A stretch of DNA of 23,589 nt from a virus. The number at the start of each line of letters is the position of its first letter. Within the stretch, counting starts at the first letter, position 1. The stretch is from positions 1 through 23,589 of the IMG/VR virus record IMGVR_UViG_3300044949_002123; one strand, 5' to 3'. The notes beneath the pieces are model-generated. The model worked only from the letters and a program-made list of their open reading frames with translations. It did not search any database and was not told where the DNA came from. The translations under genes were made by a program, and so were the position numbers. Below are positions 3,447 through 18,355 of this stretch, in pieces.

Positions 3447-3707
3447 TTATCCGCCCTTTGCCTTCTTCCAAAGATCAGCATCTGCTGTCTTTCTTGTCTT
3501 CCCGCCAACGATAAAAGAATTCACTCTTGCAAATGCCCATGCATGGCTGCTTACACCCGGTCGGTGTCCACCTTTCCATGCTGCCATGCCACGATCATAG
3601 ACCTTCTTCAGAATTCCATATGGAATGCCGCTTGCCTTTGCTTTCTTTTCCAAAGCAGATATTCTGGCTTCCTGAATGCAATTTATTAGGTTTTTGTAAT
3701 CTTTCAT
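3447..3707 (-). CDS. DUF5824-like small phage protein, 86 aa
   Basis: Small basic protein with the block SGIPYGILKKVYDRGMAAWK (residues 26-45), followed by GGHRPG...WAFARVNSF and ADADLWKKAKGG. This pattern matches a family common in T4-like marine phages that I recall as DUF5824; its function is not established. It often occurs near or fused to large head-associated or modification proteins, but that is recollection, not shown here. The ATG overlaps the stop of the 1081-residue protein by four bases (ATGA), so it is translationally coupled and probably works in the same process. The many Lys, Arg and Trp residues suggest a nucleic-acid or protein-binding role. Confidence 0.65.
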   Translation of the reverse strand: MKDYKNLINCIQEARISALEKKAKASGIPYGILKKVYDRGMAAWKGGHRPGVSSHAWAFARVNSFIVGGKTRKTADADLWKKAKGG

Positions 3708-6700
3708 GACTTTTTCTCGGGATTGTAACCCCAGACCTTTAGTGCGAGCAGTTTGCGTGTTGGTCTTCCCTTGTCATCCCGAAGACCGCCCTTCGCACCC
3801 TTCATTCGGCTAATGAAACTGACTTGCTTGCCAGCCCATTTCCAATCGTTTGGTGTCCATTTGTCCTTTGGGGTGTCAAGCATTCGAATGATGGCTCTTG
3901 CAGAGTCTCGTCCGCTGGTGATCTTCCCCCCGCTGCTTCCAGCCTTACCGGCTTCTTTTCTAGAAAGCCCTGCTTCTTTGCCATCATCAGAATCAAGGAA
4001 AGATTCAATTTCTTTGCCTGACATGTTTACAAGTTTTTTCCACTCTTTGTAGAGGGCATCTTTTTCTTCGGGGGTCTTTTCTTCTCCTAGACGATCTCTT
4101 TCCCCAGGAGTATCTTTCTTATATGTCTTTACGATTTCATCCGTACCAATCAAAAGCGGACCTCTTTTGCCGAGAGCAGTCCATTGCATGACATTGTTGA
4201 TTTTCTTGGATTCGGTCAACCACTCATCGGTTGGATCGAAGGATTCTGCCCCATGCATTTTCCATGCCGTGGCATAGAAGACTTCTTTCCAACGCTTTCC
4301 ATATCTCTTTTGAAATTCCTTCTTGACCTTTTCTTTCTTCGAAAAGCGTCTTGCAGGACCGCTCGGAGGACTGACCTCAATCATGAAGTATTCAAAATCT
4401 TCCTCAAGACTAATAGATGGATTCTTTTCAGCAATCTCTTGATTGCGTAGTTCCTTCAGGTAGTTGATGTACTGACGAGTGAGGTACGCAGATTCTCGCA
4501 TGTCTTTTGCAATGCAACGATCTTCGTATGAGATTGCAAATCTCATTTTTTCAACAAGGGTAGAATTTGCATTTTGGTCGATGCTCTCTAGCCTTTCCAA
4601 CGCCTCGTCTTGTTCGTACTGGTTCTTGAGAGCCTTTAGTTTTCCTTGCTTCTCAAGTTTCTTATAGATTGCGTTGTATTTGGATGGTTTTGTCTTAATG
4701 TTCTTCTCACGGGGATTCACAAATTCCCATGTCTTGGGATCATCGTCAGCCATTTTCTTCCTCTTTTCCAAACGCCTCTTGCGTAGTTCTGCTTCTCTCT
4801 TACTCATTCCCGAAACATATTTCTTGGGAAGACCGGTTTTTTTGTCTTTCGGACTTTCTTTTGTCTTACCCGTCTTTGTCTTAAATTCTTTGCCCCTAGT
4901 CACATCTGCTTCGAAGATTTCTTCTTCCTCTTCCTCATCGCCTCTTCGCTTGGCATTTGTGTCGGGCTGTGGATAGATTGCATCTGCGGGATCCACAACC
5001 ATTCCCGTCTTGCTGAGGAACTGCAAGCCAATCAGCACCTTTGTAGACATGTGGCTACGATCACCAAGACTGAATTTGATGTTTGTGTATTTCTTGCCAT
5101 GGAACTCAATGTCCATCAGAACAACAAGTCGCTTTTTCTCGCCAATACCGCTCTTGACCGTGATGCGACTAACGATCTTCTTGGTAACCTTCTTGCCGCT
5201 CGGCAATTTAAAAGTTACGGTGTGATCGCCATTGTCCTTGATGTCTTCGGCATGGATCATGTTGTAGCCGCTGTTGCCCGTATCGATTTTTGCGGTGTAC
5301 TCTACACCATCGATCTTGACTTTTTCACGAACGGCTAGGTTGGAGAACAATTTCCAATGCGCCTTGTTGAGGATATAGTCAAGAAAGTCTTCAACCAATT
5401 CCTCCCCTTTCACATTGTCTTTGCCTTCACCATCCTCATAGTAGCGGTAATATATGTTTCCACTACCCGGACTTGCATTCATCTCAATAATATAAGGCTT
5501 GCCATCATTGATTACATGGTCGATGCCGACATAGTAACACTTACTGACCCTTGCAGCCCGCTCCACCAACTTTATTTCTTCGTCAGAAAGTTGGAAAGAC
5601 CCGCCCTTTGAACCACGGGCAATATTCGTTCGGAAATCCTTTGGTGCCTTGTCTCGCTTGGCACATGCAAATATCTTTCCGTTCAATACGATGCTTCGAA
5701 CATCGTTTTTGAAGTTGGGCAGGAATTCCTGCATGATGATTTCTGCACCATACTTCCACAAAGTCTGAAGCACGGACTTCAGGCTTTCCATGCTTTCGAT
5801 CTTGGATACACCGATGCCTTCTGCCCCCGTAAGTGTCTTGACGATCACCGGAAATTTACCGCCAATTTCCTTGACTGCCGTTTCAATATTTTCCTCGTTG
5901 GCAACAAATGCTGTACGGGGGTGAGGGAGATCGTGTTTCTTTAGGGCAATGGCGGTCTCCAACTTGTTGGCGCACAGTTCCATGCCGCCACGCTCGTTGA
6001 CCATGAATACACCATTGTTCTGTAGAATGGTCATGATGGCGACACCGATATCGCTGTTCATCACACCACCACGAACGATGGCAACAGTATTGTGAGGATC
6101 AACCGTGCAATCCTTGCCTTCGCCGTCATAGTTCTTGATCACAATCTTCTTGGCTGCAACACTAGAGATATCAACCTGAGCCTTGCTCGTCTTAACGGCA
6201 TAGAACTCAATCTTGCGCCGCTTACAGATGGCTTCCATCTTCTCAATGGTGTCACTCAAATCTTTTTCGGAAGAAGTCAGAGCAACGATGGTAACTTCCT
6301 TATCACCTTCATTTGCTTCGGCAACAAATTGTTCTTTGAGGTTTAAACCTTTTCTGACATCTTTATAGAGTTTTTTCTTTAGAGCAACATCGTTTCCAGG
6401 AACACCTGTGGAGAAACTTTTGAAATCATTGTTGAATGCTGCTGCTCTCATCTTTGAAGCAGACATTCCTGCAACCCCTTGTGCAGCATCGTCACGGGCT
6501 TCTCCAGCAACAATTACATCAAGAGTCTCAAAAGAATACTTTCTCTTCTTGGGATCGTTTTGTGCCACCTTCCCCTTGTATTCCTTGATCTTGTTGTACT
6601 CAGCAATGTGATCGCTTCCAGTCACAACAACAATGTTCTTGTATCCCAGTTCACACAAATAAAGAACCGTATCAAATGGATTGATAGATTTTCCGATGGG

Positions 6701-6949
6701 AAACTTTCCACGGGGGAAAAACTTCTTGAGATACGCAATTTTTGTTTTTTGGTCTAGTGGATTTTTCTTCGGATCTTGTGTTTTTGATACAAAGATGTAA
6801 TGGTCGGCATTTCTTTTTGATGCCTCTGCCATCACCTTGTCCACAACAGCACCATGACCTATAGTTGGGGGATTCATTCTACCGAAAGCAAAAACCACGG
6901 TATCTTTCTTTTTTGCTTCGGTAATATGATCTGCAAACCTTTTCGTCAT
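3704..6949 (-). CDS. Multidomain fusion: HIGH-family nucleotidyltransferase, RimK-like ATP-grasp ligase, retropepsin-like protease, basic C-terminus (1081 aa)
   Basis: Four regions are visible. Residues 17-200 form a nucleotidyltransferase of the NMNAT/PPAT (HIGH) superfamily: GRMNPPTIGH (23-32) is the nucleotide-binding signature and SASKMRA (163-169) takes the place of the ISSTxxR motif. Residues 218-530 form a RimK-like ATP-grasp ligase: the lysine segment FPVIVKTLTGAEGIGV (366-381), DVRSIVLNGK (416-425), and the metal site GIDHV (475-479) with IIEMNASPGSG (487-497), giving D477, E489 and N491. Residues 540-655 resemble the RimK-associated aspartic/zinc-protease-like family: AKIDTGNSG (553-561) holds the Asp-Thr-Gly triad, and VLIGLQFL (638-645) is the family's second hallmark. 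From 670 on there is an acidic run, then a long Lys/Arg-rich region with GPARRFSKKEK and KRYGKRWKEVFYATAWK. ATP-grasp proteins of this type add amino acids or peptides to acceptors; the substrate here is unknown. The gene is coupled by ATGA overlaps on both sides. Confidence 0.8.
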   Translation of the reverse strand: MTKRFADHITEAKKKDTVVFAFGRMNPPTIGHGAVVDKVMAEASKRNADHYIFVSKTQDPKKNPLDQKTKIAYLKKFFPRGKFPIGKSINPFDTVLYLCELGYKNIVVVTGSDHIAEYNKIKEYKGKVAQNDPKKRKYSFETLDVIVAGEARDDAAQGVAGMSASKMRAAAFNNDFKSFSTGVPGNDVALKKKLYKDVRKGLNLKEQFVAEANEGDKEVTIVALTSSEKDLSDTIEKMEAICKRRKIEFYAVKTSKAQVDISSVAAKKIVIKNYDGEGKDCTVDPHNTVAIVRGGVMNSDIGVAIMTILQNNGVFMVNERGGMELCANKLETAIALKKHDLPHPRTAFVANEENIETAVKEIGGKFPVIVKTLTGAEGIGVSKIESMESLKSVLQTLWKYGAEIIMQEFLPNFKNDVRSIVLNGKIFACAKRDKAPKDFRTNIARGSKGGSFQLSDEEIKLVERAARVSKCYYVGIDHVINDGKPYIIEMNASPGSGNIYYRYYEDGEGKDNVKGEELVEDFLDYILNKAHWKLFSNLAVREKVKIDGVEYTAKIDTGNSGYNMIHAEDIKDNGDHTVTFKLPSGKKVTKKIVSRITVKSGIGEKKRLVVLMDIEFHGKKYTNIKFSLGDRSHMSTKVLIGLQFLSKTGMVVDPADAIYPQPDTNAKRRGDEEEEEEIFEADVTRGKEFKTKTGKTKESPKDKKTGLPKKYVSGMSKREAELRKRRLEKRKKMADDDPKTWEFVNPREKNIKTKPSKYNAIYKKLEKQGKLKALKNQYEQDEALERLESIDQNANSTLVEKMRFAISYEDRCIAKDMRESAYLTRQYINYLKELRNQEIAEKNPSISLEEDFEYFMIEVSPPSGPARRFSKKEKVKKEFQKRYGKRWKEVFYATAWKMHGAESFDPTDEWLTESKKINNVMQWTALGKRGPLLIGTDEIVKTYKKDTPGERDRLGEEKTPEEKDALYKEWKKLVNMSGKEIESFLDSDDGKEAGLSRKEAGKAGSSGGKITSGRDSARAIIRMLDTPKDKWTPNDWKWAGKQVSFISRMKGAKGGLRDDKGRPTRKLLALKVWGYNPEKKS

Positions 6950-8145
6950 TGGTTGATCTTCCTGTTCTGTCTGCTGAATCTCAATCTATTTACCAGTTTT
7001 GTTACCTTACCTGAACGAGCAACTACAATTCCTTCAGGATCGGTTGGGCGAATTCCATCTTCGTCCACAAAGAAATGCCCAAATTGTGATAGGGCATAAA
7101 ACTTACTAAGCAATACTTCTTTTGCTTTTGCTATCAAATTATGTAGTTCAAACATTTCGTTGAACTGAGATTCATATGCCTTAATATAGGAAAGCATCTT
7201 TTGTTTTGCGGCTTCTTTGCCCTGCTTTCCCTTTTCCGTTTTCAATTTTTGGATTTCTTTGTCAAACTTACTTTTCACATTTAGTGTAAGTCCGTTTGTT
7301 GAAAATTGTGCCATGCCGCCATTGATTGTTGCATTGATATATGGAAGAATATATTCAACCAGATCCTTGTTTGTCATAAGAGTCTTGAGGAAAGCACCAA
7401 CCTTTTTTGATTTTGTTTCGCATTCTTTGATGATTCCCATCAGAGTCGCATATTCATTTCCCTTCAGCAGGGCGGGTGTAATGTCGTAGATGTTTGGATC
7501 AGTAAACCAAACATCAGGTGTTTTCTTTAGGCTGCTAGAATCAAAATTGAAGGAGGCGGCTGAGAGAGCCGCCATGGTCTTTCCGTTGTAGACGGTGTGG
7601 AAGGCTATGCCAACCTTGGCGGAAGCCACAGAACGCCCTATATCGCTGTCTGTGGGGATCGCATACATGATGGTGTTCGGCATGAATGTGATGTACGGCT
7701 TCCCATCAATCGTCTGAGATTTTTTGGAATCGGAAGTGAACATCAGATCGCCCTGAAGCACCCCTTTGATTCCTATCTTTGGTAAAAACTTGAGGCATTG
7801 AATGAGTTTTGAGGCAAGATCGGCGTTTGGAACACCTTTCTTAACCTCAGCCTCGGTATGGAAAGCAACAACAGTTTTGTTAAAAGCACCCTTTGTTGCA
7901 ACAAAAAACTTCCCATTGTCTGGATTGATTCCACAAACAATAGCAGGCTTTCCGTCCCACTTTGTCGATAGTCCCAAAGAAGTATCACCCGTTTTTAGAC
8001 TTTGAGTGATATCTTTTAGAAATGCAATTGAAAGTTTGAGTCCCTTTTCCCCCTGAAGGATCATCAAATCCTCTAGGTGATCTAGGTGCTTGTTCCTGAC
8101 GGTTTCCTCTGACAGGGTAGGAATCATTTCCTTGAACGATAGCAT
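6946..8145 (-). CDS. KxDG-type nucleotidyltransferase (DNA/RNA ligase-like fold), 399 aa
   Basis: The protein carries the core motifs of covalent nucleotidyltransferases (DNA/RNA ligases and capping enzymes). KWDG at 62-65 is motif I with the candidate AMP-accepting lysine K62. GVLQGDLMF (128-136) resembles the GEL segment after motif I. VGIAFHTVYNG (178-188) resembles motif IIIa, EGIVVAR (371-377) is motif IV, and KVTKLVNR (380-387) is motif V. A helical, Lys-rich insertion of about 150 residues separates IIIa from IV, which is unusual for a ligase. No OB-fold follows motif V, so classical nick-sealing is doubtful. Similar proteins occur in marine T4-like phages as conserved unknowns (I recall a DUF6267 label, not verified). 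The ATG at 8145 has a GGGAG ribosome site and a TAAATA late-type box. The stop overlaps the next gene's start (ATGA), linking it to the ATP-grasp fusion. Confidence 0.7.
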   Translation of the reverse strand: MLSFKEMIPTLSEETVRNKHLDHLEDLMILQGEKGLKLSIAFLKDITQSLKTGDTSLGLSTKWDGKPAIVCGINPDNGKFFVATKGAFNKTVVAFHTEAEVKKGVPNADLASKLIQCLKFLPKIGIKGVLQGDLMFTSDSKKSQTIDGKPYITFMPNTIMYAIPTDSDIGRSVASAKVGIAFHTVYNGKTMAALSAASFNFDSSSLKKTPDVWFTDPNIYDITPALLKGNEYATLMGIIKECETKSKKVGAFLKTLMTNKDLVEYILPYINATINGGMAQFSTNGLTLNVKSKFDKEIQKLKTEKGKQGKEAAKQKMLSYIKAYESQFNEMFELHNLIAKAKEVLLSKFYALSQFGHFFVDEDGIRPTDPEGIVVARSGKVTKLVNRLRFSRQNRKINQ

Positions 8146-8163
8146 ATTCTCTCCCGTAGAGGT

Positions 8164-8171
8164 TATTTAGG
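8164..8171 (-). promoter_or_regulatory. Late promoter-like box CCTAAATA
   Basis: The minus strand reads CCTAAATA, 6 of 8 matches to TATAAATA. It sits in the 37-nt gap between the tRNA and the ligase-like gene, 18 nt before ATG 8145, with GGGAG between. It would separate late transcription of the ligase/ATP-grasp cassette from the upstream replication genes. Confidence 0.45.
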
Positions 8172-8182
8172 TATGTTTTGAA

Positions 8183-8256
8183 TAGGCGGGGCGGGGATCG
8201 AACCCGCATGAGGGCGATTATAAGTCACCACCTTTTTCCAATTCAGGCACCCGCCT
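8183..8256 (-). tRNA. tRNA-Ile, anticodon UAU
   Basis: A full 74-nt cloverleaf can be drawn. The acceptor AGGCGGG pairs with CCCGCCT over 7 bp. The D arm is CCTG/AAGG with GG in its loop. The anticodon stem GGTGA/TCGCC encloses the loop CTTATAA, giving anticodon UAU. The variable loop has five bases. The T stem GCGGG/CCCGC encloses TTCGATC. The discriminator base is A, as expected for isoleucine. CCA is not encoded. UAU would read the AUA codon, which in most bacteria is read by a CAU (lysidine) tRNA. It lies 7 nt after the gp41 stop and is probably co-transcribed with it. Confidence 0.85.
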
Positions 8257-8263
8257 GTGGGTG

Positions 8264-9688
8264 TCAAGACCAATTGTCTAGGGCGGGTTTCTCCCGTGCG
8301 CTCATGCGCCCGTGCCCGCCCGTGCGTATGGGTGAATCTTCATCATCGTCCTGTTGACTTGAATTGCCGTCCTGAATCAATTGCTGTTCCTCTTCGTCAA
8401 CATCATACAACTTCATCTTGGATCGGTCAATACCAATCACAAACTTTCTGTGAGTTGCGACATCATTGTAGCGATTCTTCAACTGCTTCACCATGACCTG
8501 ACCCAATTCGTCCAACTGCTCTGTGGAAATGAGTGCAAACATGAAGTCTGCGGTGGCGGGAAGACCGAATGACTCCGATGTATCGGTGAGTTCGACATCG
8601 GTGTTGCCAAAACCCGAACGGTTGGTTTGGGTTGCGGTAAAGATAGGAACTCCGATCTCCACAGCCAAGCCACGAAGTTCCTCGGCAATCGCCTTTACAT
8701 AGGTATACGAGTTAACATTTCCGTTTGCCTTGAAACGAGAAGAAGCACAGATGTTGAGGTAGTCGATGAAGATGACATCGGGCTTGAAGTTCTTCTTCAG
8801 GCGAAGTTCATCCAACAGGTGGCGGAAGTGATTCACATTAGCGGATGCGGTGGGATATTCCTTGATGAGGAGTTTCCCCGTGATACCAGCAGTCACCTTT
8901 GCAAGACGCTTGCTGTAGATTTCCAATGGCAGTTTCTTCAGTTCATCCAACGAAATGTCCATCAGATTGGCATCGATGCGCTCTGCGATTCGCTCCTCAG
9001 CCATCTCGCATGTGATATAGAGGACATTCTTGCTCTGTGTCAGGCAGTTGGCAGCATGGTGGCACATGAATAGGGACTTTCCAACGCCGGTGCCTGCAAG
9101 ACAGACATTCAGAGTCTTGTCGGGAACTCCACCATTGGTGATCTTGTTGAAATAATCAAGGTCAAAGGGGGTCTTCTTCTCCACACGATGGTAGAAGTCA
9201 TAGCGTTCCGCAGAGTCTTCGATGAAGTCGTGACCAATATGCTCATCGAAGGAAACGCTCAATGCCTTCGTGAGGATTTCAGGAATGGCATTCTTGGAGC
9301 GTCCCTTTGCCTTTTTCTCATCAAGCAGTTCAATTGACTCCATGATTGCATTGTAAACAGCCTTATCCTTGCAGAACTTTTCTGTCTGATCCACAAGCCA
9401 TTGTTCATCGGGCGGATCTGTTTCTGCGGCAAGACCCTCCACCAACTTGATGCAATCGTCATACTCGCCCTGCGACAATCCCTCTTGGCTGTTCAGGATG
9501 ATGTTCAATGCTTCACGGGTAGGGGCATTTGAATACTTTTCGATGAACTCAGAGATCGTCTTAAACAGACGCTTCTCGCAGTTGTCATGGAAGTACTCTT
9601 CCTTGAGAAACGGCTGCACTCTCCGTGTGAAATCGGAGCGATGTAGCAAACTACGCAAAATCACAAGTTCAATCTTGTCTGATTGCAT
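8264..9688 (-). CDS. 41: Replicative DNA helicase gp41 (DnaB family)
   Basis: A 474-residue DnaB-like helicase close in length to T4 gp41 (475). The N-terminal helical domain covers residues 1-150. The RecA-like ATPase domain has Walker A AGTGVGKS (198-205), Walker B VIFIDYLNI (305-313), the QTNRSG motif (354-359) and an arginine-finger-type KNR (404-406). The last 45 residues are acidic and then Gly/Arg-rich (DDDEDSPIRTGGHGR), with DNA of striking GC-rich alternating sequence. In T4, gp41 forms a hexamer on the lagging strand and recruits gp61 primase. The ATG at 9688 lies 20 nt inside the end of the upstream phosphodiesterase gene, so the helicase is translated downstream of the sugar cluster. 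No promoter is seen directly upstream. Confidence 0.93.
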   Translation of the reverse strand: MQSDKIELVILRSLLHRSDFTRRVQPFLKEEYFHDNCEKRLFKTISEFIEKYSNAPTREALNIILNSQEGLSQGEYDDCIKLVEGLAAETDPPDEQWLVDQTEKFCKDKAVYNAIMESIELLDEKKAKGRSKNAIPEILTKALSVSFDEHIGHDFIEDSAERYDFYHRVEKKTPFDLDYFNKITNGGVPDKTLNVCLAGTGVGKSLFMCHHAANCLTQSKNVLYITCEMAEERIAERIDANLMDISLDELKKLPLEIYSKRLAKVTAGITGKLLIKEYPTASANVNHFRHLLDELRLKKNFKPDVIFIDYLNICASSRFKANGNVNSYTYVKAIAEELRGLAVEIGVPIFTATQTNRSGFGNTDVELTDTSESFGLPATADFMFALISTEQLDELGQVMVKQLKNRYNDVATHRKFVIGIDRSKMKLYDVDEEEQQLIQDGNSSQQDDDEDSPIRTGGHGRMSAREKPALDNWS

Positions 9689-10130
9689 TATTGTCAGATT
9701 CTACCAATAGGTTACGCAAAGTCAAGGGATAATCCGTGCAGACACCGAAAACAGAATATGGGGGGAGAGTTGGTTCCTTTGAAACCACGATTCCATTTTT
9801 ATTGTAATTTTCGGGATAGCACCACGGAATGCCCTTACTTGTTAAAGTGAATCGATCATTTTCATGCCAAAAGTAGTGAATGCCATCTTCGAACATCCGC
9901 TCCATAGCCTCTACATTTTTTGCATGACACCAAAGCCAAGAGTGCTTCAACCACCAAGAGGGAACTACATGCTGAGGACAATCATGACCCAACATGTAGT
10001 TCCCTTGGTGAAACCAAACATCTATCTCTACATCAAATCCCTCAAGGTAGGCAAGTTCTACAAAAAAAGGATGGTTTTCCTTATCAGGAATTCTTCCTTC
10101 TAAATTGCCTCTATGAGAAATTATTTTCAC
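9669..10130 (-). CDS. Small glycerophosphodiester phosphodiesterase-like (PLC-like TIM barrel) protein, 153 aa
   Basis: GDPD-type active-site residues are visible: ISHRGN (4-9) with H6 and R7, VEIDVW (34-39) with E35 and D37, and GHD (48-50) with H49. In the family these bind metal and attack phosphodiesters. At 153 residues it is well short of the usual 230-250, so it may be a reduced barrel. I chose the GTG at 10130: it overlaps the stop of the dehydratase as GTGA, is preceded by GGGATC, and begins 5 residues before the HRGN motif. An ATG at 10166 would add 12 residues inside the upstream gene. Members of this type appear in surface-sugar clusters, perhaps acting on glycerophosphate-linked glycans. 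The gene contains a long near-perfect inverted repeat at 9952-10010. Confidence 0.65.
   Translation of the reverse strand: MKIISHRGNLEGRIPDKENHPFFVELAYLEGFDVEIDVWFHQGNYMLGHDCPQHVVPSWWLKHSWLWCHAKNVEAMERMFEDGIHYFWHENDRFTLTSKGIPWCYPENYNKNGIVVSKEPTLPPYSVFGVCTDYPLTLRNLLVESDNNAIRQD
9952..10010. repeat. Long inverted repeat inside the phosphodiesterase gene
   Basis: The left arm (9952-9971) and right arm (9993-10010) pair over 12 perfect bases (GGGAACTACATG with CATGTAGTTCCC). They continue for six more (CACCAA with TTGGTG) after a 2-nt bulge, around a 21-nt loop. The repeat is in coding sequence and would form a stable hairpin in the mRNA about 260-320 nt before the gp41 start. No U-run follows. 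Confidence 0.8.
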
Positions 10131-11125
10131 TTGATCCCAATCCACTCTGGATTCTTCAAAGACCAATCAACTACGGAAGCCATTGAATTTTCAAGATCCA
10201 TTGGCAAATTCCACCCCATCTGTTGCATCTTGGATCCGTCAAGAGCGTATCGAAGATCGTGTCCCGGACGACTGCTGTGGAAATCAACCAATTCATAATT
10301 CAGCGGCTTTCCTAGAATATTAGCAATCATTTGTGCCAGAGAGAGATTGTCGATTTCCCTTTCGCCCACAATATTGTACTTGTCACCGTTCTTGCCATTC
10401 TTCATGATGAAATCTACAGCCGAACAGACATTTTGTGCGTGAATGTAGAATCGACTTCCAGCCTTTGTCAGAGAATGATTTGCGTGAATAATTACCTTTT
10501 CGCCACGAACAATTTTGCGGATGCATGAAGGAATAAACTTCTCTGGATGCTGTCTCTCTCCAAAGATGTTCATGCAATGGGAAATCATAATCGGCATCTT
10601 GTATGTGTTTTCAAAAGCAAGACACAGTTCCTCTCCACCCGCTTTCGTTGCGGAATATGGATTTCCAGACTGATAACGGTCCCACTCTTTGTAGTTTACG
10701 CCTTCGGGGGCGGGACCAAACACTTCGTCTGTAGAGAAATATACAAAGTTCTTGAGATTCGACAAACGCCTTGCATAATTCAAAATATTGCAAGTACCCA
10801 CAACATTATCCATGACGAAAGACATTGGGTCTTCGATGCTTCGATCAACATGAGAACCAGCACCAATGTGCAAAACCACATCAGGGTCTCCTAGCATTGT
10901 GCATAGAATCTCATTGCTGTGCAGTTCGGCTTTCATGTCATGCCAAACAAACTTGACACGATTCTTGTTTTTTTCCCACGAATCTAGTGCTGTAAGTCTG
11001 TTAATGTTTCCTGAAACATCAAGACGATCAAGAATAGTCACATGAGTGTCCGTATTACGAAGCAAATAATCGACCATGTGATGACCAACAAATCCGACCC
11101 CACCCGTAACCAATACATTCTTCAT
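10127..11125 (-). CDS. NAD-dependent sugar-nucleotide 4,6-dehydratase/epimerase (RmlB-like)
   Basis: A 332-residue extended short-chain dehydrogenase. The NAD-binding motif is GGVGFVG (8-14). STDEVFG (131-137) carries the Thr-Asp-Glu set typical of dTDP-glucose and related 4,6-dehydratases. Y157 and K161 in PYSATK are the catalytic YxxxK pair. GSHVDRSIEDP (90-100) is also typical of RmlB. The reaction would be nucleotide-hexose to 4-keto-6-deoxy-hexose. RmlC and RmlD homologues are not visible in the window, so the final sugar may not be rhamnose. The ATG at 11125 has an AAGGAG ribosome site 18 nt after the nucleotidyltransferase gene, which could supply its substrate. The stop overlaps the phosphodiesterase GTG start. 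Confidence 0.82.
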   Translation of the reverse strand: MKNVLVTGGVGFVGHHMVDYLLRNTDTHVTILDRLDVSGNINRLTALDSWEKNKNRVKFVWHDMKAELHSNEILCTMLGDPDVVLHIGAGSHVDRSIEDPMSFVMDNVVGTCNILNYARRLSNLKNFVYFSTDEVFGPAPEGVNYKEWDRYQSGNPYSATKAGGEELCLAFENTYKMPIMISHCMNIFGERQHPEKFIPSCIRKIVRGEKVIIHANHSLTKAGSRFYIHAQNVCSAVDFIMKNGKNGDKYNIVGEREIDNLSLAQMIANILGKPLNYELVDFHSSRPGHDLRYALDGSKMQQMGWNLPMDLENSMASVVDWSLKNPEWIGIK

Positions 11126-11143
11126 GACAAAATCTCCTTTGTT

Positions 11144-11866
11144 TTAGTTGTTGATTGTCTGGTTCAAATATGAATTCAAGTCTTCCGGCGTTCCAATCCC
11201 ATGCATTTTGTGTACAAAAAAAGGTATCAAAGTCCCGTTGTTGAAAATCAATTCGTTGTACACAGGGGCAATGTAAAACTCATTATTGACTCTGATGTTT
11301 TTTTCAATCATAGCCTCTGCGTATTTCACAAAATCACTTCCCCTACGATACCAGTAAATCCCGCAAGTTGCAATATCTGATATTGGATTTTTTTCAGCGA
11401 CTTCTGTAACAATTCCTCTAGAGTTGGTTTTTACAAAAGACCATTTCGGATGTACAGCGTGAAAAGTGAAAACAATACCATCAACATTTGCTAATGTCTT
11501 CAAAGCATTGAAGTTTTCTGGACTATATTCAATTACTTGATCGGAGTTTGCAATGAGCAAATCATCGTCATTGTTGATGAATTCCTTTGCTAAAAGCGCA
11601 GTACATGCTGCACCTTCAGTAAGACCATCTACTTCAACAATCTGATATCTTCCGTTCGTAATTCGGCTGAGTGTCTGTTTCAAGCCAGAATACTTTGCCA
11701 AATGTTCTTTTCTAACAAGAAAGATATAATCGGCATCAAAATCAAGATTCTCAACCACAGCCTGTATCATGGGTTTGCCACGAACATCAATCAGAGGCTT
11801 GGGAAAGGTATATCCTTCTTTTGAAAACCTACTTCCCTCTCCCGCCATGGGTATCAAAATCTTCAT
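11144..11866 (-). CDS. Sugar-phosphate nucleotidyltransferase
   Basis: A 240-residue GT-A-fold nucleotidyltransferase. MKILIPMAGEGSRF (1-14) is the nucleotide-binding signature, FPKPLI (21-26) with GKPMIQ (30-35) follows, and NSDQ (107-110) holds the metal aspartate. The C-terminal HKMHGIGTPEDLNSYL is typical of the family. It should activate a sugar 1-phosphate to a nucleotide sugar; the base and the sugar cannot be told from sequence alone. I chose ATG 11866, with a TAGGAG ribosome site, over the ATG at 11890 because the family begins at MKILIP. The gene starts 38 nt inside the HAD gene and is followed by the RmlB-like dehydratase, which would use its product. Confidence 0.8.
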   Translation of the reverse strand: MKILIPMAGEGSRFSKEGYTFPKPLIDVRGKPMIQAVVENLDFDADYIFLVRKEHLAKYSGLKQTLSRITNGRYQIVEVDGLTEGAACTALLAKEFINNDDDLLIANSDQVIEYSPENFNALKTLANVDGIVFTFHAVHPKWSFVKTNSRGIVTEVAEKNPISDIATCGIYWYRRGSDFVKYAEAMIEKNIRVNNEFYIAPVYNELIFNNGTLIPFFVHKMHGIGTPEDLNSYLNQTINN

Positions 11867-12473
11867 TACAAAATCTCCTATAACCCTCAAGGGTCACTTC
11901 AGTAGTATCACTTACCTTCCAGAGATACTTGGCACTACTATTTAGAGCAGCAGTTATTCCTGTGATAGAATCTTCCACACATAAAACAAATTTCGGATCA
12001 ACATTCAACACAGAGATTGCAAGATTGTAGCAATCAGGATTTGGTTTATTCTTGGCAACATCTTCGTTGCTGATTACAGCATCCAAATATTCAAGTTGAC
12101 CCGTTTTAGAAAGCATCATGCTTGCTGTCTTCTTTATTGAGTTAGTAACACAGGCTGTTTTTACACCAATCGATTTCAAATAAGAAAGCAATTCTATTTT
12201 CTCTGCCATGATGATCGCATTTTCCTCAATAACCTCTATGGTAAGAGACTGTTTCAAGTCATTGATTTTTTGAGCAAGACCATCATCAATTTCAAGCATT
12301 TTCAGTTTTACTTTTGTCGGAAGTCCGTTGTATTTCAATAAATGATCTTCTCTTGATATTGAATAACCAACAGTTTGTTGTAGGGCACGGTTTAAAGACT
12401 CGTAATGCCAATCACACGCATCTACAAGTACGCCATCAAGATCAAATAATACTGCTTGAAAAGGAATTTCCAT
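11829..12473 (-). CDS. HAD-superfamily hydrolase, beta-phosphoglucomutase-like
   Basis: A 214-residue HAD protein with motif I DLDGVLVD (11-18; nucleophile D11, acid D13), a helical cap (about 20-95), motif II VTNS (109-112), motif III NKPNPDCY (142-149) with K143, and motif IV VEDSITG (166-172) with acidic E167 and D168. The subfamily resembles beta-phosphoglucomutase and sugar phosphatases. It may convert a hexose 6-phosphate to the 1-phosphate, or dephosphorylate a sugar phosphate, just ahead of the nucleotidyltransferase. The start ATG at 12473 is 7 nt after the methyltransferase stop; an ATG at 12515 would lie inside that gene. The last 13 codons overlap the next gene. A TCTAAATA box lies at 11939-11946 inside this gene. 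Confidence 0.75.
   Translation of the reverse strand: MEIPFQAVLFDLDGVLVDACDWHYESLNRALQQTVGYSISREDHLLKYNGLPTKVKLKMLEIDDGLAQKINDLKQSLTIEVIEENAIIMAEKIELLSYLKSIGVKTACVTNSIKKTASMMLSKTGQLEYLDAVISNEDVAKNKPNPDCYNLAISVLNVDPKFVLCVEDSITGITAALNSSAKYLWKVSDTTEVTLEGYRRFCNEDFDTHGGRGK
11939..11946 (-). promoter_or_regulatory. Possible late-type box TCTAAATA inside the HAD gene
   Basis: The minus strand reads TCTAAATA, 7 of 8 matches to the T4 late box. It lies inside the HAD gene, 72 nt upstream of the nucleotidyltransferase start. It is identical to the box at 15709-15716. The coding location lowers confidence. Confidence 0.25.
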
Positions 12474-12480
12474 TATCGTT

Positions 12481-13140
12481 TTAGCCGACAATTGCGTGAC
12501 CTTTAACTCTTCCAAGGTAAATCATTTGTAATGGGTCATTTGCTGCAATAAAACATGCCAATGTCTGAAATCCCGCCATTTCATGACACATTTGCAATGT
12601 CCTGAGAGAGAAGACATGATGGTGTATCACTCTTGTTGAATTTTCCTCGCCAACATCTTCGTAGTATGTTGGGCGAGTTTCCAACATACATGATGACTCT
12701 TCTAAATGAGTCATGTCGGATTCTGGAGTATTTTTCTTAAAGTCTTCTACTAGGTGTTCAAATGGTGTGTCCTCTCTATTTTTGTCCCAGCACTCCATCT
12801 TATTTGGGACTATTGTAATAATCCCTCCCCCATCTGCCAATGCTGTAGACCAAGAACACAATGCTTTAATTGGATTGGCAAAATGTTCTAGAGTGTGTGA
12901 CGAAATAAGGCAATCAAATCTACGAAGTATCCTGTTGTAAACAAATGGGTATGGCTCTGATGCATCCCCATTGTAGACATACCTTGTATTAGTTGGATTA
13001 GCATCTTGCAAATGCACCGCCATAGATTCCGGAAGATTCATGAATGATACTGTAAGCATCTGTGGATATAAACCACCGAGTAGTCTACTTGGACCACCAA
13101 TCTCAAGAACATTCTTTCCTTTTATCAATTCTTCAATCAT
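12481..13140 (-). CDS. SAM-dependent methyltransferase (class I)
   Basis: A 219-residue protein with the SAM-binding motif NVLEIGGPSR (10-19), an acidic post-strand region around GDASEPYPF (58-66), and FDCLISSHTLEHFANPIKAL (75-94), typical of type-11/type-12 methyltransferases. ADGGGIITIVPNK (102-114) forms the strand after it. A His-rich segment (RVIHHHVFS) lies in the C-terminal half. Within a glycan cluster it most likely methylates a sugar hydroxyl or carboxyl, or a glycosyl acceptor; the target is unknown. The start ATG at 13140 overlaps the upstream glycosyltransferase by 8 nt and follows AAGGATC. The gap to the HAD gene is 7 nt. Confidence 0.75.
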   Translation of the reverse strand: MIEELIKGKNVLEIGGPSRLLGGLYPQMLTVSFMNLPESMAVHLQDANPTNTRYVYNGDASEPYPFVYNRILRRFDCLISSHTLEHFANPIKALCSWSTALADGGGIITIVPNKMECWDKNREDTPFEHLVEDFKKNTPESDMTHLEESSCMLETRPTYYEDVGEENSTRVIHHHVFSLRTLQMCHEMAGFQTLACFIAANDPLQMIYLGRVKGHAIVG

Positions 13141-13804
13141 TGTGATCCTTCTTGTCTAATGCGTATTTTTCTTTTGGATATCTGTGAAGGTGTCTCTCAT
13201 ATACACATATGTTGCTGTTGTGCATGGATTTTACCTTTGGAAACCCATACCCTATCCAAAATTCTGCCAAATGCCTTGGTGTGGGTGCGCCCTCTATTTG
13301 AAAAATGGGCGGATTTATTTGCGGGAGTCTGTTGATGTATTGGGAAGAAGCCCACCAGAAATTGCCTGAGAAGTGCTTGTTGGGAAGAGTGACCCAATCA
13401 ACCCCAACAGCATCATAGCCCTCCCCAAGGGCTTTAATACAGTCTCTGGCTCGTTCAATAACAAAGTAACCCATGTATTGCCGCCAGTCTATTATGCATG
13501 GATTGTCAAAACCATTGAATACTCCTTTGGTATGTACATATCCAACAGGAACACCCACACCTACATTTTTGCAAAATTGTCTCAGTATTTCAAGTGTGAA
13601 AAATTCACCTTTAGTAAAATCATCATTGTGATACTCTTGATTAAACCAAGTCTCATTTGTTTGGGGTTTCCCCACAGAGCATACACGAACATCAATTTCA
13701 TTCTTCATGCCCGACATTTCAATTGAGGAAAAGAACTCATCCATGATCGTTGAATAACGATCATTACCTGTTCCACAATGAACAAATAATGTCGGCTTAT
13801 GCAT
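13133..13804 (-). CDS. Probable glycosyltransferase, HTKG/GNFWWA type
   Basis: A 223-residue protein with YVHTKGVFN (89-97), DWRQYMGYFVIER (106-118), YDAVGVDW (130-137) and HFSGNFWWASS (144-154). The HTKG plus GNFWWA combination resembles glycosyltransferases such as the rhamnan-synthesis RgpF type and related proteins in large viruses. I infer glycosyl transfer from that and from the context, but the donor is not known. I chose ATG 13804 because MHKPTLFVHCGTG begins the first beta strand; a longer reading from 13903 would lie inside the upstream gene. The start overlaps the upstream stop by 8 nt. No membrane segment is seen, so it would act in the cytoplasm. Confidence 0.6.
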   Translation of the reverse strand: MHKPTLFVHCGTGNDRYSTIMDEFFSSIEMSGMKNEIDVRVCSVGKPQTNETWFNQEYHNDDFTKGEFFTLEILRQFCKNVGVGVPVGYVHTKGVFNGFDNPCIIDWRQYMGYFVIERARDCIKALGEGYDAVGVDWVTLPNKHFSGNFWWASSQYINRLPQINPPIFQIEGAPTPRHLAEFWIGYGFPKVKSMHNSNICVYERHLHRYPKEKYALDKKDHND

Positions 13805-14738
13805 CCGCAAATACCTCGTTGATTTTTTCAACCAACTTGTTTTCGTAATCCCAATTTCTTGTCCAATTGTACATTGTGTGTAGAATTGGAATTCCTGTAT
13901 CAATAAGCATGTTTCTTCCCGTTTCTTTCCAATACCGATTCAACGGGACTTCCTCGTAAGGATCGATAAACAAATCCCTTCTTGATACAATCGTCTTCCA
14001 ATCTTCAGTTCTAATCCCAAAGAAAGAGTTGCAGAAATATGGGTAATCTGTATTTCTGATGATTTCGCCTTCCACAACACGCATCGATTGGGGGAATGCT
14101 TCAAAGATCATGTCGTTAATGAATTTTGCAACAGAGAAATTCATTCTGACAGGGTGAATTCCCTTGTAGTAGTGATTGATTTGCTTTACCGCTTGATAAA
14201 AAGCGTTTGGATTCCAATCCCCCACGGTTTGTGGTTTTGCGTAATTTAGCAGAGAGTAATCAACCCCACCACCAACACCGTATGATGTCAATGAGAACAG
14301 ATTATTCACAATCTGCTTTGAGTTGGGGATGAAGTTGTTAACAAAAAAGTCGCAAGTTGGAACTCCATTGCTGATTGCACCCGTACAAAACAAATCTTGA
14401 TTCGTCATCGATTCTATCAAATTAAAGAATCGATCCCACCCATCAGAGAGGAGAATGCAGTCTTCATCCATCTTGACGGAGAATTCATGTTCTCTTCCAA
14501 TGCCATGGATAATTTTTTCCATGTAGTTTCCGTCACCAGGAGCAAACCCATCTACGACTGTAGAATTTTGTGGGAGTTGTTCATTGAACAAGTTCTTTAT
14601 TTCCTGCGGGACAGCATCGCCAAGAATGTAGATGTGAAAGTTGCGATACTTGCACTTGGCGAGTTGCTTTGCATGAGTAGTCATCAACGACATTCGCCTC
14701 GTTGTCAGGCACATGATTCCAATTTTTGCTTTTGCCAT
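13797..14738 (-). CDS. Putative GT-A-fold glycosyltransferase, 313 aa
   Basis: The N-terminus KIGIMCLTTRRMS (5-17), followed by a strand FHIYILGD and then FSVKMDEDCILLSDGWDRFF (86-105), has the layout of a GT-A glycosyltransferase. DED at 91-93 would be the DxD metal site. The family is not identified. Gly-rich SYGVGGGVDYS and the C-terminal TGIPILHTMYNWTRNW are other notable segments. ATG 14738 is preferred over 14777 because it has an AGGAT ribosome site and starts at the first strand. It follows the epimerase stop by 4 nt and overlaps the next glycosyltransferase by 8 nt. It probably adds one residue to the glycan made by this cluster. Confidence 0.55.
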   Translation of the reverse strand: MAKAKIGIMCLTTRRMSLMTTHAKQLAKCKYRNFHIYILGDAVPQEIKNLFNEQLPQNSTVVDGFAPGDGNYMEKIIHGIGREHEFSVKMDEDCILLSDGWDRFFNLIESMTNQDLFCTGAISNGVPTCDFFVNNFIPNSKQIVNNLFSLTSYGVGGGVDYSLLNYAKPQTVGDWNPNAFYQAVKQINHYYKGIHPVRMNFSVAKFINDMIFEAFPQSMRVVEGEIIRNTDYPYFCNSFFGIRTEDWKTIVSRRDLFIDPYEEVPLNRYWKETGRNMLIDTGIPILHTMYNWTRNWDYENKLVEKINEVFADA

Positions 14739-14742
14739 GATA

Positions 14743-15684
14743 TTAATCCTGTCTAGAAATCCAGTCTTCAAGAACAACCTTTGGCTCCCATTTCAAGTTT
14801 GATTTGATCTTCTTGATATTTGCCAATGTTACTCTAGCCTCTCCTTCTCTGGCTGGAAGGTGGATGTGATCGAATTTGTGATTGTAGTGTCTTGCGATCA
14901 AGTTTGCAACTTGCAAAACCGAATGATTTTTTCCGGTGCCAATATTGTAAATCTCGCCACGCTGATTCGATTCGACTACGGCACCCTCATACAAAGCATC
15001 GCAGACATCGCCAACATGGACGAAATCTCTTTTTTGCTGCCCATCACCGACAATTGACAAAGGTTCACCAGATTTTACTTGTCGTTGGAACACCCCAATC
15101 ACGGGAGCATATTGGCCCCTCTTAGGTTGTCTTTCGCCGTAAATGTTGAAACCTCGGAAGCAGACTGTATCCAAATCGTAAAGTGTTGAATACATTTTGC
15201 ACAAACCTTCACCAAACCATTTTGAATAGGAATAGGCGTTCAAACAATCAGGTTCATCAGTTTCTTTTTGGTCACCATTCGCCGTCATTTCCGCAACTAC
15301 TTTGCTACGAAGCCCATAAATCGCAGATGTACTCATAAACACAAGTCGTTTGACATCGTATTTCTTTGCAAGCGACAGCATGGTTTGTGTGCCCATGGTA
15401 TTTGTTTCCAAGCACAAAGTAGGATCAATTATGCATCTTTGTATACGAGCCTCCGCAGCCAAATGAAAGACATAATCAAACTTGTGCCGTTTGAACACAT
15501 CAGAACACATGATGTAATCTGTTACCGAATACTTGTGATATTCTGCTTTGGGATTGAAATAGAAATGGTCGTGGGCATCCGCAGAAAGATCGTCAATTCC
15601 TACAACATCATGCCCCATTTCAATCAGGCGATCCACTAAATTCGAACCAATAAAACCGCAGGATCCCGTCACTAGCATTCTCAT
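14743..15684 (-). CDS. NAD-dependent sugar-nucleotide epimerase (GalE-like)
   Basis: A 313-residue extended short-chain dehydrogenase with GSCGFIG (7-13), HLAAEAR (74-80), MSTSAIYG (117-124) and the catalytic Y151-x3-K155 in AYSYSKWFGEG. FRGFNIYGERQ and GDGQQKRDFVHVGDV in the C-terminal half bind the sugar nucleotide. The Ser-Thr-Ser in place of Thr-Asp-Glu points to a C4-epimerase rather than a dehydratase. UDP-glucose 4-epimerase or UDP-GlcA/UDP-GlcNAc epimerase are the options. UDP-galactose made here would feed the UDP-galactopyranose mutase and the galactosyltransferase-like gene. The start has an excellent AAGGAG site and the TCTAAATA box 24 nt upstream, so this begins a second transcription unit in the cluster. 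Confidence 0.8.
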   Translation of the reverse strand: MRMLVTGSCGFIGSNLVDRLIEMGHDVVGIDDLSADAHDHFYFNPKAEYHKYSVTDYIMCSDVFKRHKFDYVFHLAAEARIQRCIIDPTLCLETNTMGTQTMLSLAKKYDVKRLVFMSTSAIYGLRSKVVAEMTANGDQKETDEPDCLNAYSYSKWFGEGLCKMYSTLYDLDTVCFRGFNIYGERQPKRGQYAPVIGVFQRQVKSGEPLSIVGDGQQKRDFVHVGDVCDALYEGAVVESNQRGEIYNIGTGKNHSVLQVANLIARHYNHKFDHIHLPAREGEARVTLANIKKIKSNLKWEPKVVLEDWISRQD

Positions 15685-15708
15685 AATGAAAAATTCTCCT
15701 TGTTGACT

Positions 15709-15716
15709 TATTTAGA
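15709..15716 (-). promoter_or_regulatory. Late promoter-like box TCTAAATA starting the second sugar operon
   Basis: The minus strand reads TCTAAATA (7 of 8 matches to TATAAATA) in the 41-nt gap between the 240-residue glycosyltransferase and the epimerase. AAGGAG and ATG follow at normal spacing. It is the only clear non-coding break within the sugar cluster. Confidence 0.5.
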
Positions 15717-15725
15717 CTGCAAGCA

Positions 15726-16448
15726 TCAGTCTTGTATTTGATAATCGACCGAGTTCAAATGAATTTCTGGATCGGGAATTGGTTCTGGTGGATGATTGAT
15801 TTTCATGAAATCCTCGCCTTTGAGAATTTTTACGACTGCATTCTTATTCATTTTGTACATCCAATTTTCACGACAACGAGCAGACCACTCGCAATCTTCA
15901 CCCTGACCCCATGTGCGATTTTCATCTAATCGATTTTTAGCCATGTAACTTTTTTTAGCACACCAATAAGAACCGCTGATGTACATTTGATGCGTCTTGC
16001 TATTGTCATCATACTTTAGCCAATCCCAATCTCCCCACCATTGTCTTGGATAGCACCAGTCACGAAAACGGCGATTGTCGAGAAGACGAATTTGATTCAT
16101 ACAAACATCCCAATCGCACCCGAAGTTTTCAAATGACTTGTACCAGCCACGACATAGTGCAAAGTAATCGTGGGATATCACAAGATTTTCGTACTTTGAC
16201 ATCTGTACCGCTAGATTCTTTTTTCGGGTAATCCACCCCGTTTTGGTAGATTCATCGAAAGGAATGTGAATTATGTCAATTCCATTATCTTGCAATGGTT
16301 GAACCATGGAGTCTATAGAACCAGACTCTTTGCCGACAAGAACAATCTGATATCGATCTTTTTTAAGTCCTTCTTGATTGATAATCGATTTGACAAAACG
16401 ATTTAGATAATCAGTTTTATTAAAGACTATGCAAAAAGACCAATTCAT
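15726..16448 (-). CDS. Putative GT-A (family 2-like) glycosyltransferase, 240 aa
   Basis: The N-terminal strand WSFCIVFNKTDYLNRFVKSI (3-22) and YQIVLVGKE (33-41) form the nucleotide-sugar-binding half. NLVISHDYFALCRGWY (88-103) occupies the DxD position, with H93-D94 as candidate metal residues. SGSYWCAKK (158-166) and TWGQGEDCEWSARCRE (179-194) resemble the acceptor and ED motifs of GT2/GT7-type enzymes. It has many Trp and Tyr residues. The start overlaps the glf stop (ATGA). It may transfer Gal, Galf or another residue; the specificity is not visible. It is the last gene of the uvsX-proximal sugar operon. Confidence 0.6.
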   Translation of the reverse strand: MNWSFCIVFNKTDYLNRFVKSIINQEGLKKDRYQIVLVGKESGSIDSMVQPLQDNGIDIIHIPFDESTKTGWITRKKNLAVQMSKYENLVISHDYFALCRGWYKSFENFGCDWDVCMNQIRLLDNRRFRDWCYPRQWWGDWDWLKYDDNSKTHQMYISGSYWCAKKSYMAKNRLDENRTWGQGEDCEWSARCRENWMYKMNKNAVVKILKGEDFMKINHPPEPIPDPEIHLNSVDYQIQD

Positions 16449-17530
16449 TCTTCCTTTTCCGATCTGACTAGTGCTGATCCCACAACCTGATGCATGTCAT
16501 AATATTTGTAATCTGCTAGCCGACCGCCAAAAATATAACGAGTATTGTCTATTCTTGCCTTGTATTTTTGATACAGTTCGTTGTTCTCGTCATCATTCAC
16601 AGGATAGAATTTCTCCTTTGAGGAATCCCATGTTTGAGGATGTTCCCTTGTTACAACTGTATGACTCTGTTTTCCAAATTCAAAGTGTTTGTGTTCGATC
16701 ACTCTTGTGTATGAGATATTTTCCTCGGTATAATTTACAAGAGCATTTCCCTGATAATCCGAAATATCCATGGTCTCATGCTCAAAGCGAAGGCTTCTCC
16801 ATGCAAGTCTTCCCATATCGCAACCGAAAAACTCGTCAATAGGACCAGTATAGACAATCTTCTTGGCTTTCTTTTCAAAAGCATCTCGGTCTACAATATA
16901 GTCCACACCAGTTTCGTGGTCAATTCCACTAAGAAGTTTTTCGAAAATGCTAGTGTACCCCCCAATAGGAATACCCTGATACTTGTCCTCGTAATAATTG
17001 TCATCAAATGTCAAGCGAATGGGAAGTCTCTTGATGATAAATGAAGGCAAATTCTTAGGATCACGACCCCATTGCTTTTTCGTGTAACCATAGACAAACT
17101 TGTGGTAAATCTCCTCACCAACCTGAGAGAGAACCCACTCTTCAAGATTTTGTGGATTTGGTATGGAAACTTTGACTTCTTCTAGTTTCTTCTGCGCTTC
17201 CGCAGGAGTTTTCACTCCCCATAGTTGATAGAGGGTAAAAAGATTGATTGGGAACGAGTAGAGTTCGCCTTTGTAATGAACCTTGGGGCGATTGACATAG
17301 TGGTTGAATTTTGTCCAACGGTTCATGTAGTCCCACACACGGTCGCTGCTCGTATGGAAAATATGAGGACCGTATTCGTGGACATTAATACCACCGACAT
17401 CCTTGGTGTAGCAATTTCCGCCTATGTGGTTTCGCTTGTCTATTACCAAGCACTTTGCACCACGATCAGTCATCTGACGGGCAAAGATCGAACCAAACAA
17501 ACCAGAGCCAACAATCAAATAGTCGTACAT
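16445..17530 (-). CDS. glf: UDP-galactopyranose mutase
   Basis: A 361-residue flavoenzyme, the length of bacterial UGM (about 367). It has the FAD-binding motif VGSGLFGS (7-14), DKRNHIGGNC (31-40), and HEYGPHIFHT (51-60), a UGM hallmark. It also has KKQWGRDPKNLP and, near the end, GRLADYKYYDMHQVVGSAL, which carries the tyrosine/arginine substrate-binding set. It converts UDP-galactopyranose to UDP-galactofuranose and needs reduced FAD. Galf is a component of bacterial O-antigens and capsules. The upstream GT90-like gene ends directly before its ATG and the next gene overlaps its stop, so it is in the middle of a tight operon. The downstream GalE-like epimerase could make its substrate. Confidence 0.93.
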   Translation of the reverse strand: MYDYLIVGSGLFGSIFARQMTDRGAKCLVIDKRNHIGGNCYTKDVGGINVHEYGPHIFHTSSDRVWDYMNRWTKFNHYVNRPKVHYKGELYSFPINLFTLYQLWGVKTPAEAQKKLEEVKVSIPNPQNLEEWVLSQVGEEIYHKFVYGYTKKQWGRDPKNLPSFIIKRLPIRLTFDDNYYEDKYQGIPIGGYTSIFEKLLSGIDHETGVDYIVDRDAFEKKAKKIVYTGPIDEFFGCDMGRLAWRSLRFEHETMDISDYQGNALVNYTEENISYTRVIEHKHFEFGKQSHTVVTREHPQTWDSSKEKFYPVNDDENNELYQKYKARIDNTRYIFGGRLADYKYYDMHQVVGSALVRSEKEE

Positions 17531-18352
17531 TCAGTCTGCTCCTAACATCATCAAGATGTCTTGATATCTTTGAATTGCATTTGCTCTGCGTAGATTTGCA
17601 ACAGCAAATTGCAGGGCATTTGTGGCGATTGTAGCACACTCTTCAGGATGTGTGTTAGCCCAATTCAGTTTTTCGTTTAGATCGCTAAAATCTTCCTTGA
17701 GTGGAATGTAGTGAACAAATGGCTTAGTCGAAAAAAACCAATATTCATGCCATTGACGGTCTTGGTAAAACAAAGGTCTGCCGCTGTGCATAAGAAGTTT
17801 TCCCCTTGCCGAATATCCATTTCCCTGAATGTCAATCAAGTACTTGTAATCTGCGTGTTCTGGAATGCTGACATACTTTTTTTCTGCATTTTTCATTTCA
17901 CCATCTTTACCAAACCAATTTCCCGAGTCTGCCGCACAAACATCAGGTCGGTTTGAAGATATTTGAAGAAACAACTTTCTTGTCGGATGAGTATTTGCAT
18001 TTCCAATCCAGAAAAGACAGTCGTGCTTGGGTGGAGTTTTTCCACGGGCGATCAGTTCAGAACATACATTTTCATAATCAGAGATACCGCATTCTTTCCA
18101 AGAGTCAAAAGTCCAGCAAGGAATTGTTCGTGAATTGTACTTGGAAGAACCTAATGAGAGAGGATAGAAACTCTTATCACCGAGATGAAAAAATGCTGCA
18201 AATGGCTTCAGCATTTTTCTTTTTTCTTCTGATAGTGTTTCAAAAGCACTCTTTACAAGAATAATTGTGCTTTTGCCTCGGCTTTCATAGCAATCCTCTT
18301 CCTGAAAGGACAAAGAGTTGCCGTCATAATTGATATGAAGAGTCTCACGCAT
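17531..18352 (-). CDS. GT90-like (CAP10/LpsA-type) glycosyltransferase
   Basis: A 273-residue protein whose second half matches glycosyltransferase family 90: YKYLIDIQGNGYSARGKLLM (169-188), then HSGRPLFYQ, EYWFFSTKPFVHYIPLKEDF (203-222), and NTHPEECATIATNA. LFWIGNANTHPTRKLF (113-128) is the family's sugar-nucleotide-side motif. GT90 includes the fungal CAP10 xylosyltransferase, animal protein O-glucosyltransferases and bacterial LPS-modifying enzymes such as LpsA. It would add a xylose, glucose or galactose to a glycan. It begins 3 nt after the DUF707-like gene and ends directly before glf. No membrane segment is visible. Confidence 0.8.
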   Translation of the reverse strand: MRETLHINYDGNSLSFQEEDCYESRGKSTIILVKSAFETLSEEKRKMLKPFAAFFHLGDKSFYPLSLGSSKYNSRTIPCWTFDSWKECGISDYENVCSELIARGKTPPKHDCLFWIGNANTHPTRKLFLQISSNRPDVCAADSGNWFGKDGEMKNAEKKYVSIPEHADYKYLIDIQGNGYSARGKLLMHSGRPLFYQDRQWHEYWFFSTKPFVHYIPLKEDFSDLNEKLNWANTHPEECATIATNALQFAVANLRRANAIQRYQDILMMLGAD

Positions 18353-18355
18353 GTA

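Follow-up and report, generated by a model that had tools for sequence, protein, structure and literature searches.

A candidate capsid-targeted cargo polyprotein with a nucleotidyltransferase and a RimK-RimB-like pair in an environmental viral contig

The 1081-residue protein and its enzyme domains

The IMG/VR virus record IMGVR_UViG_3300044949_002123 was analysed from position 1 to 23,589 (23,589 nucleotides, here called the window), and contains on the minus strand an open reading frame (3704-6949) that starts with ATG and encodes a protein of 1081 amino acids. An earlier note on this DNA had described the protein as a fusion of a nucleotidyltransferase (NTase), an ATP-grasp ligase and a protease-like domain with a basic tail, and this observation was confirmed. 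It had missed cleavage-type motifs at the junctions and an N-terminus that resembles a capsid-targeting sequence (CTS). The chain can be divided as follows (a slash within a motif marks the predicted cut):

6917..6949, minus strand: residues 1-11, capsid-targeting-like N-terminus MTKRFADHITE/A, predicted prohead-protease site 1
6317..6916, minus strand: residues 12-211, HIGH-type NTase with NadD/NMNAT-like fold, ending at predicted site 2, FVAE/A
5345..6316, minus strand: residues 212-535, RimK-family ATP-grasp ligase, from profile and fold matches
4970..5344, minus strand: residues 536-660, RimB/retropepsin-like domain with an invariant DTGNSG (D556)
4919..4936, minus strand: residues 672-677, EEEEEE tract closely following the RimB-like domain
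4907..4918, minus strand: predicted site 3, IFE/A (E680), where several homologues carry an extra helical module
4376..4909, minus strand: residues 681-858, largely helical basic module with a pI of 9.5, ending at predicted site 4, FMIE/V
4211..4375, minus strand: residues 859-913, small basic module of 55 amino acids, pI 9.8, ending at predicted site 5, WLTE/S
3704..4210, minus strand: residues 914-1081 and stop codon, basic module (pI 9.8) in which stretches resemble DUF3140 and DUF6321

The ATP-grasp domain is a RimK family member by its profile matches, both to Pfam RimK (3.5e-30, 105.5 bits against a cut-off of 21) and to TIGR00768 (rimK_fam; 147.3 bits, above the cut-off of 143.4). A second structure model, of residues 212-672, was good (pLDDT 77), and the ATP-grasp fold matched Pseudomonas RimK (7qys) with a TM of 0.83. 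K371, R418, D477, E489 and N491 are invariant in the alignment and were matched to Pseudomonas RimK, and they are also kept in relatives of 29-38% identity; D477, E489 and N491 are the residues on which the earlier note had based its complete RimK-like ATP-grasp. The active-site residues of the domain are intact. The Asp-Thr-Gly protease-like domain of the same note was likewise borne out, as Pfam Zn_protease scored above its cut-off (36.9 bits against 27) and DTGNSG, with the catalytic Asp-Thr-Gly motif, was invariant among the aligned homologues. Viral structure matches of this domain include annotated proteases. It is called RimB-like here, and not RimB, because it stayed below the cut-off of the RimB equivalog model NF052261 (29.4 bits against 200); the RloA3 model was also below its cut-off (37.9 bits against 210).

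RimK adds Glu to ribosomal protein S6, and RimB removes Glu and stimulates RimK; RimB cuts internal poly-Glu linkers, the known RimB needing runs of about six Glu, and a natural bacterial RimBK hybrid exists in the order RimB then RimK (PMC11957791). The phage protein shares with these a RimK-family ligase joined to a RimB-like retropepsin, with the active-site Asp and the metal ligands kept, but differs from the hybrid in its RimK-RimB order, in a protease below the RimB cut-off, and in its predicted delivery by the virion. No cleavage-type site was found between the two domains, and they likely form an attach-and-trim unit that stays joined; such a writer/eraser unit fits a pair that is left joined while the chain has sites elsewhere. 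Host S6 is the most economical guess for its substrate, although a tentative one.

The HIGH-type NTase of the earlier note, with the motifs GRMNPPTIGH and SASKMR, is supported by two PHROG cytidyltransferase families (phrog_3041 and phrog_395, with matches of 2.8e-52 and 3.7e-38) and by a predicted fold matching NadD (TM about 0.6). AlphaFold gave a poor model of the whole chain (mean pLDDT 54), of which only the NTase part and the rough linker positions were used. Pfam CTP_transf_like matched weakly (0.0046, 17.6 bits, below the cut-off of 21), no NadD or NadM model was among the NCBIfam matches listed for the protein, and a sequence search of the PDB with the NTase gave nothing useful. The domain is called only NMNAT-like, as fold and motifs agree but the family-model cut-off was not reached. 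A function as NAD supplier is a weaker claim than S6 as a target, the sequence leaving the substrate class unsettled.

Relatives of the whole protein were found at 33 loci and those of the ATP-grasp/protease part at 71 loci in IMG/VR contigs. The domain order is the same in contigs that span the gene, and because more than 60 environmental viral contigs share the protein, the fusion is not due to chance. The NTase precedes the ATP-grasp in nearly all IMG/VR relatives whose 5' end is present. In 50,697 phage records, no locus covered 80% of the protein, and none of the isolated phages among them has this domain order. There, the parts are separate or joined otherwise. In Kyanoviridae, the NTase stands by itself or is combined with other modules, and cyanophages S-SM2 and S-CREM2 have it without an adjoining RimK-RimB. 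In pelagiphage Mosig and the Yersinia phages YerA41 and vB_Yru_GN1, the ATP-grasp and the protease-like domain form a protein of their own. The NTase was thus found apart from the other domains in other phages, which the earlier note would have taken as evidence against a joint function, whereas RimK and RimB were not found separated. Stand-alone ATP-grasp and retropepsin-like proteins of about 500 amino acids, 37% identical to the pair in the window and without NTase or tail, are encoded at loci L101-L103.

According to the earlier note, one intact chain would act as a multifunctional enzyme, with a modification activated by the NTase, attached by the ATP-grasp and trimmed by the protease. 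Of this proposal, the attach/trim pair and three domains with intact motifs are supported, but the activating step is not. RimK-type ligases activate the carboxylate themselves, using ATP and needing nothing else; NTase and RimK-RimB are separate in other phages, an invariant cleavage-type site lies between them here, and the C-terminal modules vary by lineage. Even with active-site motifs conserved in all three domains, a domain order kept in more than 60 contigs, and RimK/RimB being a proven writer/eraser pair (PMC11957791), an intact multifunctional enzyme is improbable.

Junction motifs, the N-terminal sequence and the basic tail

A hydrophobic-x-E/[ASV] motif, of the type cut by T4 gp21, is present at E11, E211, E680, E858 and E913, and so at each module boundary. 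Of the junction windows drawn from domain and model boundaries, 5 of 5 contain the motif, and composition-preserving shuffles reach five in 1 of 20,000; as the pattern was set after the sequence had been seen, this result is support and not a clean test. The motif density is 0.65 per 100 amino acids, compared to 0-0.32 in six other proteins of the window. The strongest evidence for predicted cleavage sites comes from the conservation at the NTase/ATP-grasp junction (junction 2), where the site is kept in 29 of 29 unique junction strings. All 28 unique 18-mers (28 of 28) contain [LIVF]xE/[AS], whereas composition alone would predict 9%, although the 18-mers share ancestry and do not count as 28 independent trials. 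P3 is I, V, L or F, P2 is variable, P1 is always Glu and P1' is Ala (once Ser), a pattern that resembles a protease logo, and the linker that follows diverges.

The N-terminus carries a targeting-like sequence with [LI]xE before the mature part (HITE/A, residue 11). An N-terminus of the T4-CTS type was seen in all homologues in which the N-terminus is present, except for a lineage with MKTFLEA or MKTFSEA, and T4-CTS-like N-termini were also identified on single-module relatives (Mosig RimK-RimB, FKNYLEE/A; S-SM2 NTase, FFQFLSE/A). Elsewhere in the window, a polysaccharide-deacetylase-like protein (22127-22897, minus strand) starts with the capsid-targeting-like sequence MAQRFGSFLKE/P, and with MAQAFRSFLSE/E in a 168-kb relative; judged by this N-terminus, it is possibly another head cargo enzyme.

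The Glu motifs might also be uncut linker features of an ordinary polyvalent protein that is packaged and injected intact. Polyvalent proteins of 2-15 domains are common in phages, and some of them, such as the N4 virion RNAP, enter uncut (PMC5512222). In addition, composition alone can yield such motifs in disordered linkers. However, the logo of P3-hydrophobic, P1-Glu and P1'-Ala is that of the phage's own type of protease, the motif is kept at junctions and absent between ATP-grasp and protease, and within the prohead a gp21-type site that is accessible would not escape cleavage, so that packaging of an uncut chain is considered unlikely.

The 400-residue tail of the earlier note is indeed basic, but it is not a single tail and consists of several modules with DUF3140-like and DUF6321-like pieces. 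The three predicted tail fragments have a pI of 9.5-9.8, and their likeness to T4 internal proteins is confined to size and charge. C-terminal modules differ between lineages, and the extra helical module inserted at junction 3 in several homologues has its own flanking motifs.

The poly-Glu tract in front of these modules has 6-8 Glu in most homologues and is reduced or absent in some lineages. In the 168-kb relative, runs of at least five Glu were found only in the 1081-residue-type protein and in the head scaffold (2 of 178 genes). The gp22-like scaffolds of this virus lineage mostly carry E7-E11 runs near the N-terminus, and seven scaffold controls from other Kyanoviridae without the polyprotein (Melnitz, SynMITS9220M01, ACG-2014d, syn9, S-RIM8, S-CREM2 and S-SM2) reach at most E4. 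Together with the position of EEEEEE directly after the RimB-like domain and the cutting of internal poly-Glu linkers by RimB (PMC11957791), this might suggest that poly-Glu tracts in the chain or in the scaffold are cut by the RimB-like domain itself. Several homologues have only a short tract or none, however, the NTase/ATP-grasp junction is not poly-Glu, and the scaffolds of Mosig and YerA41 lack poly-Glu although both phages have RimK-RimB, which makes self-processing quite unlikely. A tie between scaffold poly-Glu and the RimB-like domain fails in these two phages as well. Scaffold and polyprotein occur together in only two records, and no polyprotein was found in 14 scaffold-bearing records, which are fragments; the scaffold link is kept as a lead only.

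Links to the phage head and a proposed packaging route

The T4 protease gp21 cleaves behind Glu residues, internal proteins of T4 reach the core by means of a CTS, and Alt is cut at ITE-6 and LTE-619 (PMC5694885); the window protein has ITE-11 and LTE-913. An S77 prohead protease and gp23 are encoded in the records of two relatives, and the N-terminal regions of their gp23 proteins contain the maturation-like sites QYLRE/SAPTN and QYLKE/AAPTN; Mosig, C48C1 and other Kyanoviridae have similar ones. Searches for a gp21-type protease or gp23 in the 147.6-kb record G002, and for a prohead protease in 18 further records with relatives, nearly all of them fragments, gave no match.

Relatives of single modules have also been reported from virions. 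The NTase relative gp154 was detected in the virion proteome of S-CREM2 (PMC10665884), and its N-terminus reads MKNFSSFLTE/A. An NMNAT-like relative, S-SCSM1 ORF91, was reported from virions by authors who allow for co-purification (PMC9602691), and the RimK-RimB protein of YerA41 is annotated as a structural protein. The soluble S-CREM2 virion enzymes gp6, gp12 and gp14 also carry F-x-x-F-[LM]-x-E near the N-terminus, a pattern seen only after looking. One of them, gp12 (7704-10313), is annotated as a CRISPR-associated Cas9/Csn1 nuclease and, given its CTS-like stretch FASFMAE/A and its presence in virions, may be injected.

The gene sits between gp41 helicase-type and gp61 primase-type genes and not among head genes, as might be expected if its product acted only in intracellular growth and were never packaged. 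The reports of NTase relatives in several cyanophage virions and the CTS-like N-terminus argue against this, and a purely intracellular role is hardly probable.

We infer that the 1081-residue protein is probably a capsid-targeted cargo polyprotein that is cut by the prohead protease and whose modules are injected with the DNA. Its first 11 residues would act like a T4 CTS and bring the chain into the prohead core, where an S77 (gp21-type) prohead protease would cut after Glu at the five junctions and remove the tag. The products would be an NMNAT-like NTase, a RimK-like ligase still joined to a RimB-like glutamyl protease, and three small basic proteins, with predicted masses of about 22, 52, 21, 7 and 19 kDa. 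They would remain with the DNA in the head and be delivered on infection, like T4 Alt and the internal proteins. In the host, RimK-RimB would attach glutamates to a host protein and trim them, ribosomal protein S6 being the most plausible target, and the NTase would act on its own, perhaps supplying NAD. The likely purpose of the fusion itself is that the modules are packaged together and reach the host jointly.

Several points weigh against this proposal. The junction pattern was set after the sequence had been seen. With P1' restricted to Ala or Ser, 4 of the 5 junctions match, and [LIVMF]xE[ASV] occurs also at E42 and E819, inside predicted folded or helical parts. The YerA41 RimK-RimB protein has no recognisable CTS. 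CTS-like N-termini are present in 6 of 178 called genes of the 168-kb relative, little above the background per start codon, so that this census is not decisive; in S-CREM2 (108 genes), a preset CTS regular expression matched 4 of 18 virion proteins and 4 of 90 others (p=0.025), a modest enrichment. Virion evidence is limited to relatives of single modules, and the 23.6-kb window record contains no head or capsid genes.

The proposed cargo polyprotein is a variation on the packaging of T4 internal proteins and Alt and on the polyvalent proteins of phages. Common to it and the T4 proteins are a short targeting-like sequence at the N-terminus with [LI]xE at its end, predicted gp21-type cleavage, including ITE and LTE sites as in Alt, and both basic and enzymatic cargo. 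Unlike in T4, five predicted cargos follow a single tag in one chain, and an NMNAT-like NTase and a RimK-RimB pair take the place of the ADP-ribosyltransferase Alt. With several unrelated effector-type domains and predicted packaging, the protein falls under the definition of polyvalent proteins. These too are multidomain proteins for which packaging and delivery to the host are predicted, and any processing of them is due to embedded peptidases (Iyer et al. 2017, PMC5512222). The predicted processor here is instead the capsid-maturation protease, and the domain set of the 1081-residue protein was not found in the passages of that survey that were covered. The cyanophage cytidylyltransferase/NMNAT-like virion proteins S-CREM2 gp154 and S-SCSM1 ORF91 belong to the same NTase family, are reported from virions and, in S-CREM2, have a CTS-like N-terminus, but they lack RimK-RimB. 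In the limited literature searched, no statement on a T4-like head polyprotein or CTS in cyanophages was found.

More speculatively, DNA phages might use a true polyprotein strategy for injected effectors, with one capsid tag, a fixed module ratio and release by the capsid-maturation protease. A delivered writer and eraser of glutamate tails could then reset host ribosomes in the first minutes of infection, and modules could alternate in evolution between tagged single-gene forms and fused, site-bearing forms. If the packaging route is true, it would explain odd enzyme fusions beside replication genes in large T4-like phages, with the joint as a packaging device, and junction motifs in a sequence would allow virion cargo and the true ends of proteins to be predicted. 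Viral editing of host S6 glutamate tails at entry by a phage-delivered RimK-RimB pair would become testable.

Neighbouring genes and other features of the window

The gene is flanked by two others on the same strand:

6946..8145, minus strand: upstream neighbour, DUF6267 gene, with an ATGA overlap with the polyprotein gene
3447..3707, minus strand: downstream neighbour, DUF5824 gene, with an ATGA overlap; N-terminus MKDYKNLINCIQE/A

The ATGA overlaps on both sides are what a co-translated operon would be expected to show. Both neighbours are connected to the NTase in other contexts, as the phrog_455 profile joins DUF6267 to an NTase, and the DUF5824 module is fused to the NTase in Methylophilales phage Melnitz, in Pelagibacter phage HTVC008M and in phrog_3041. 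If the proposed packaging is true, a shared function as head cargo could be assigned to the many marine T4-like phage genes annotated as "cytidyltransferase", DUF6267 or DUF5824.

A tRNA-Ile gene with the anticodon TAT (8183-8256, minus strand) lies directly upstream of the DUF6267 gene. Between the gp41 helicase and a UvsX-like recombinase, a cluster of sugar genes (9669-20591, minus strand) encodes two NAD-dependent epimerases/dehydratases, a nucleotidyl transferase, a HAD phosphatase, a UDP-galactopyranose mutase, and family 90 and family 7-type glycosyltransferases, and could serve the modification of the host surface, the virion or DNA.

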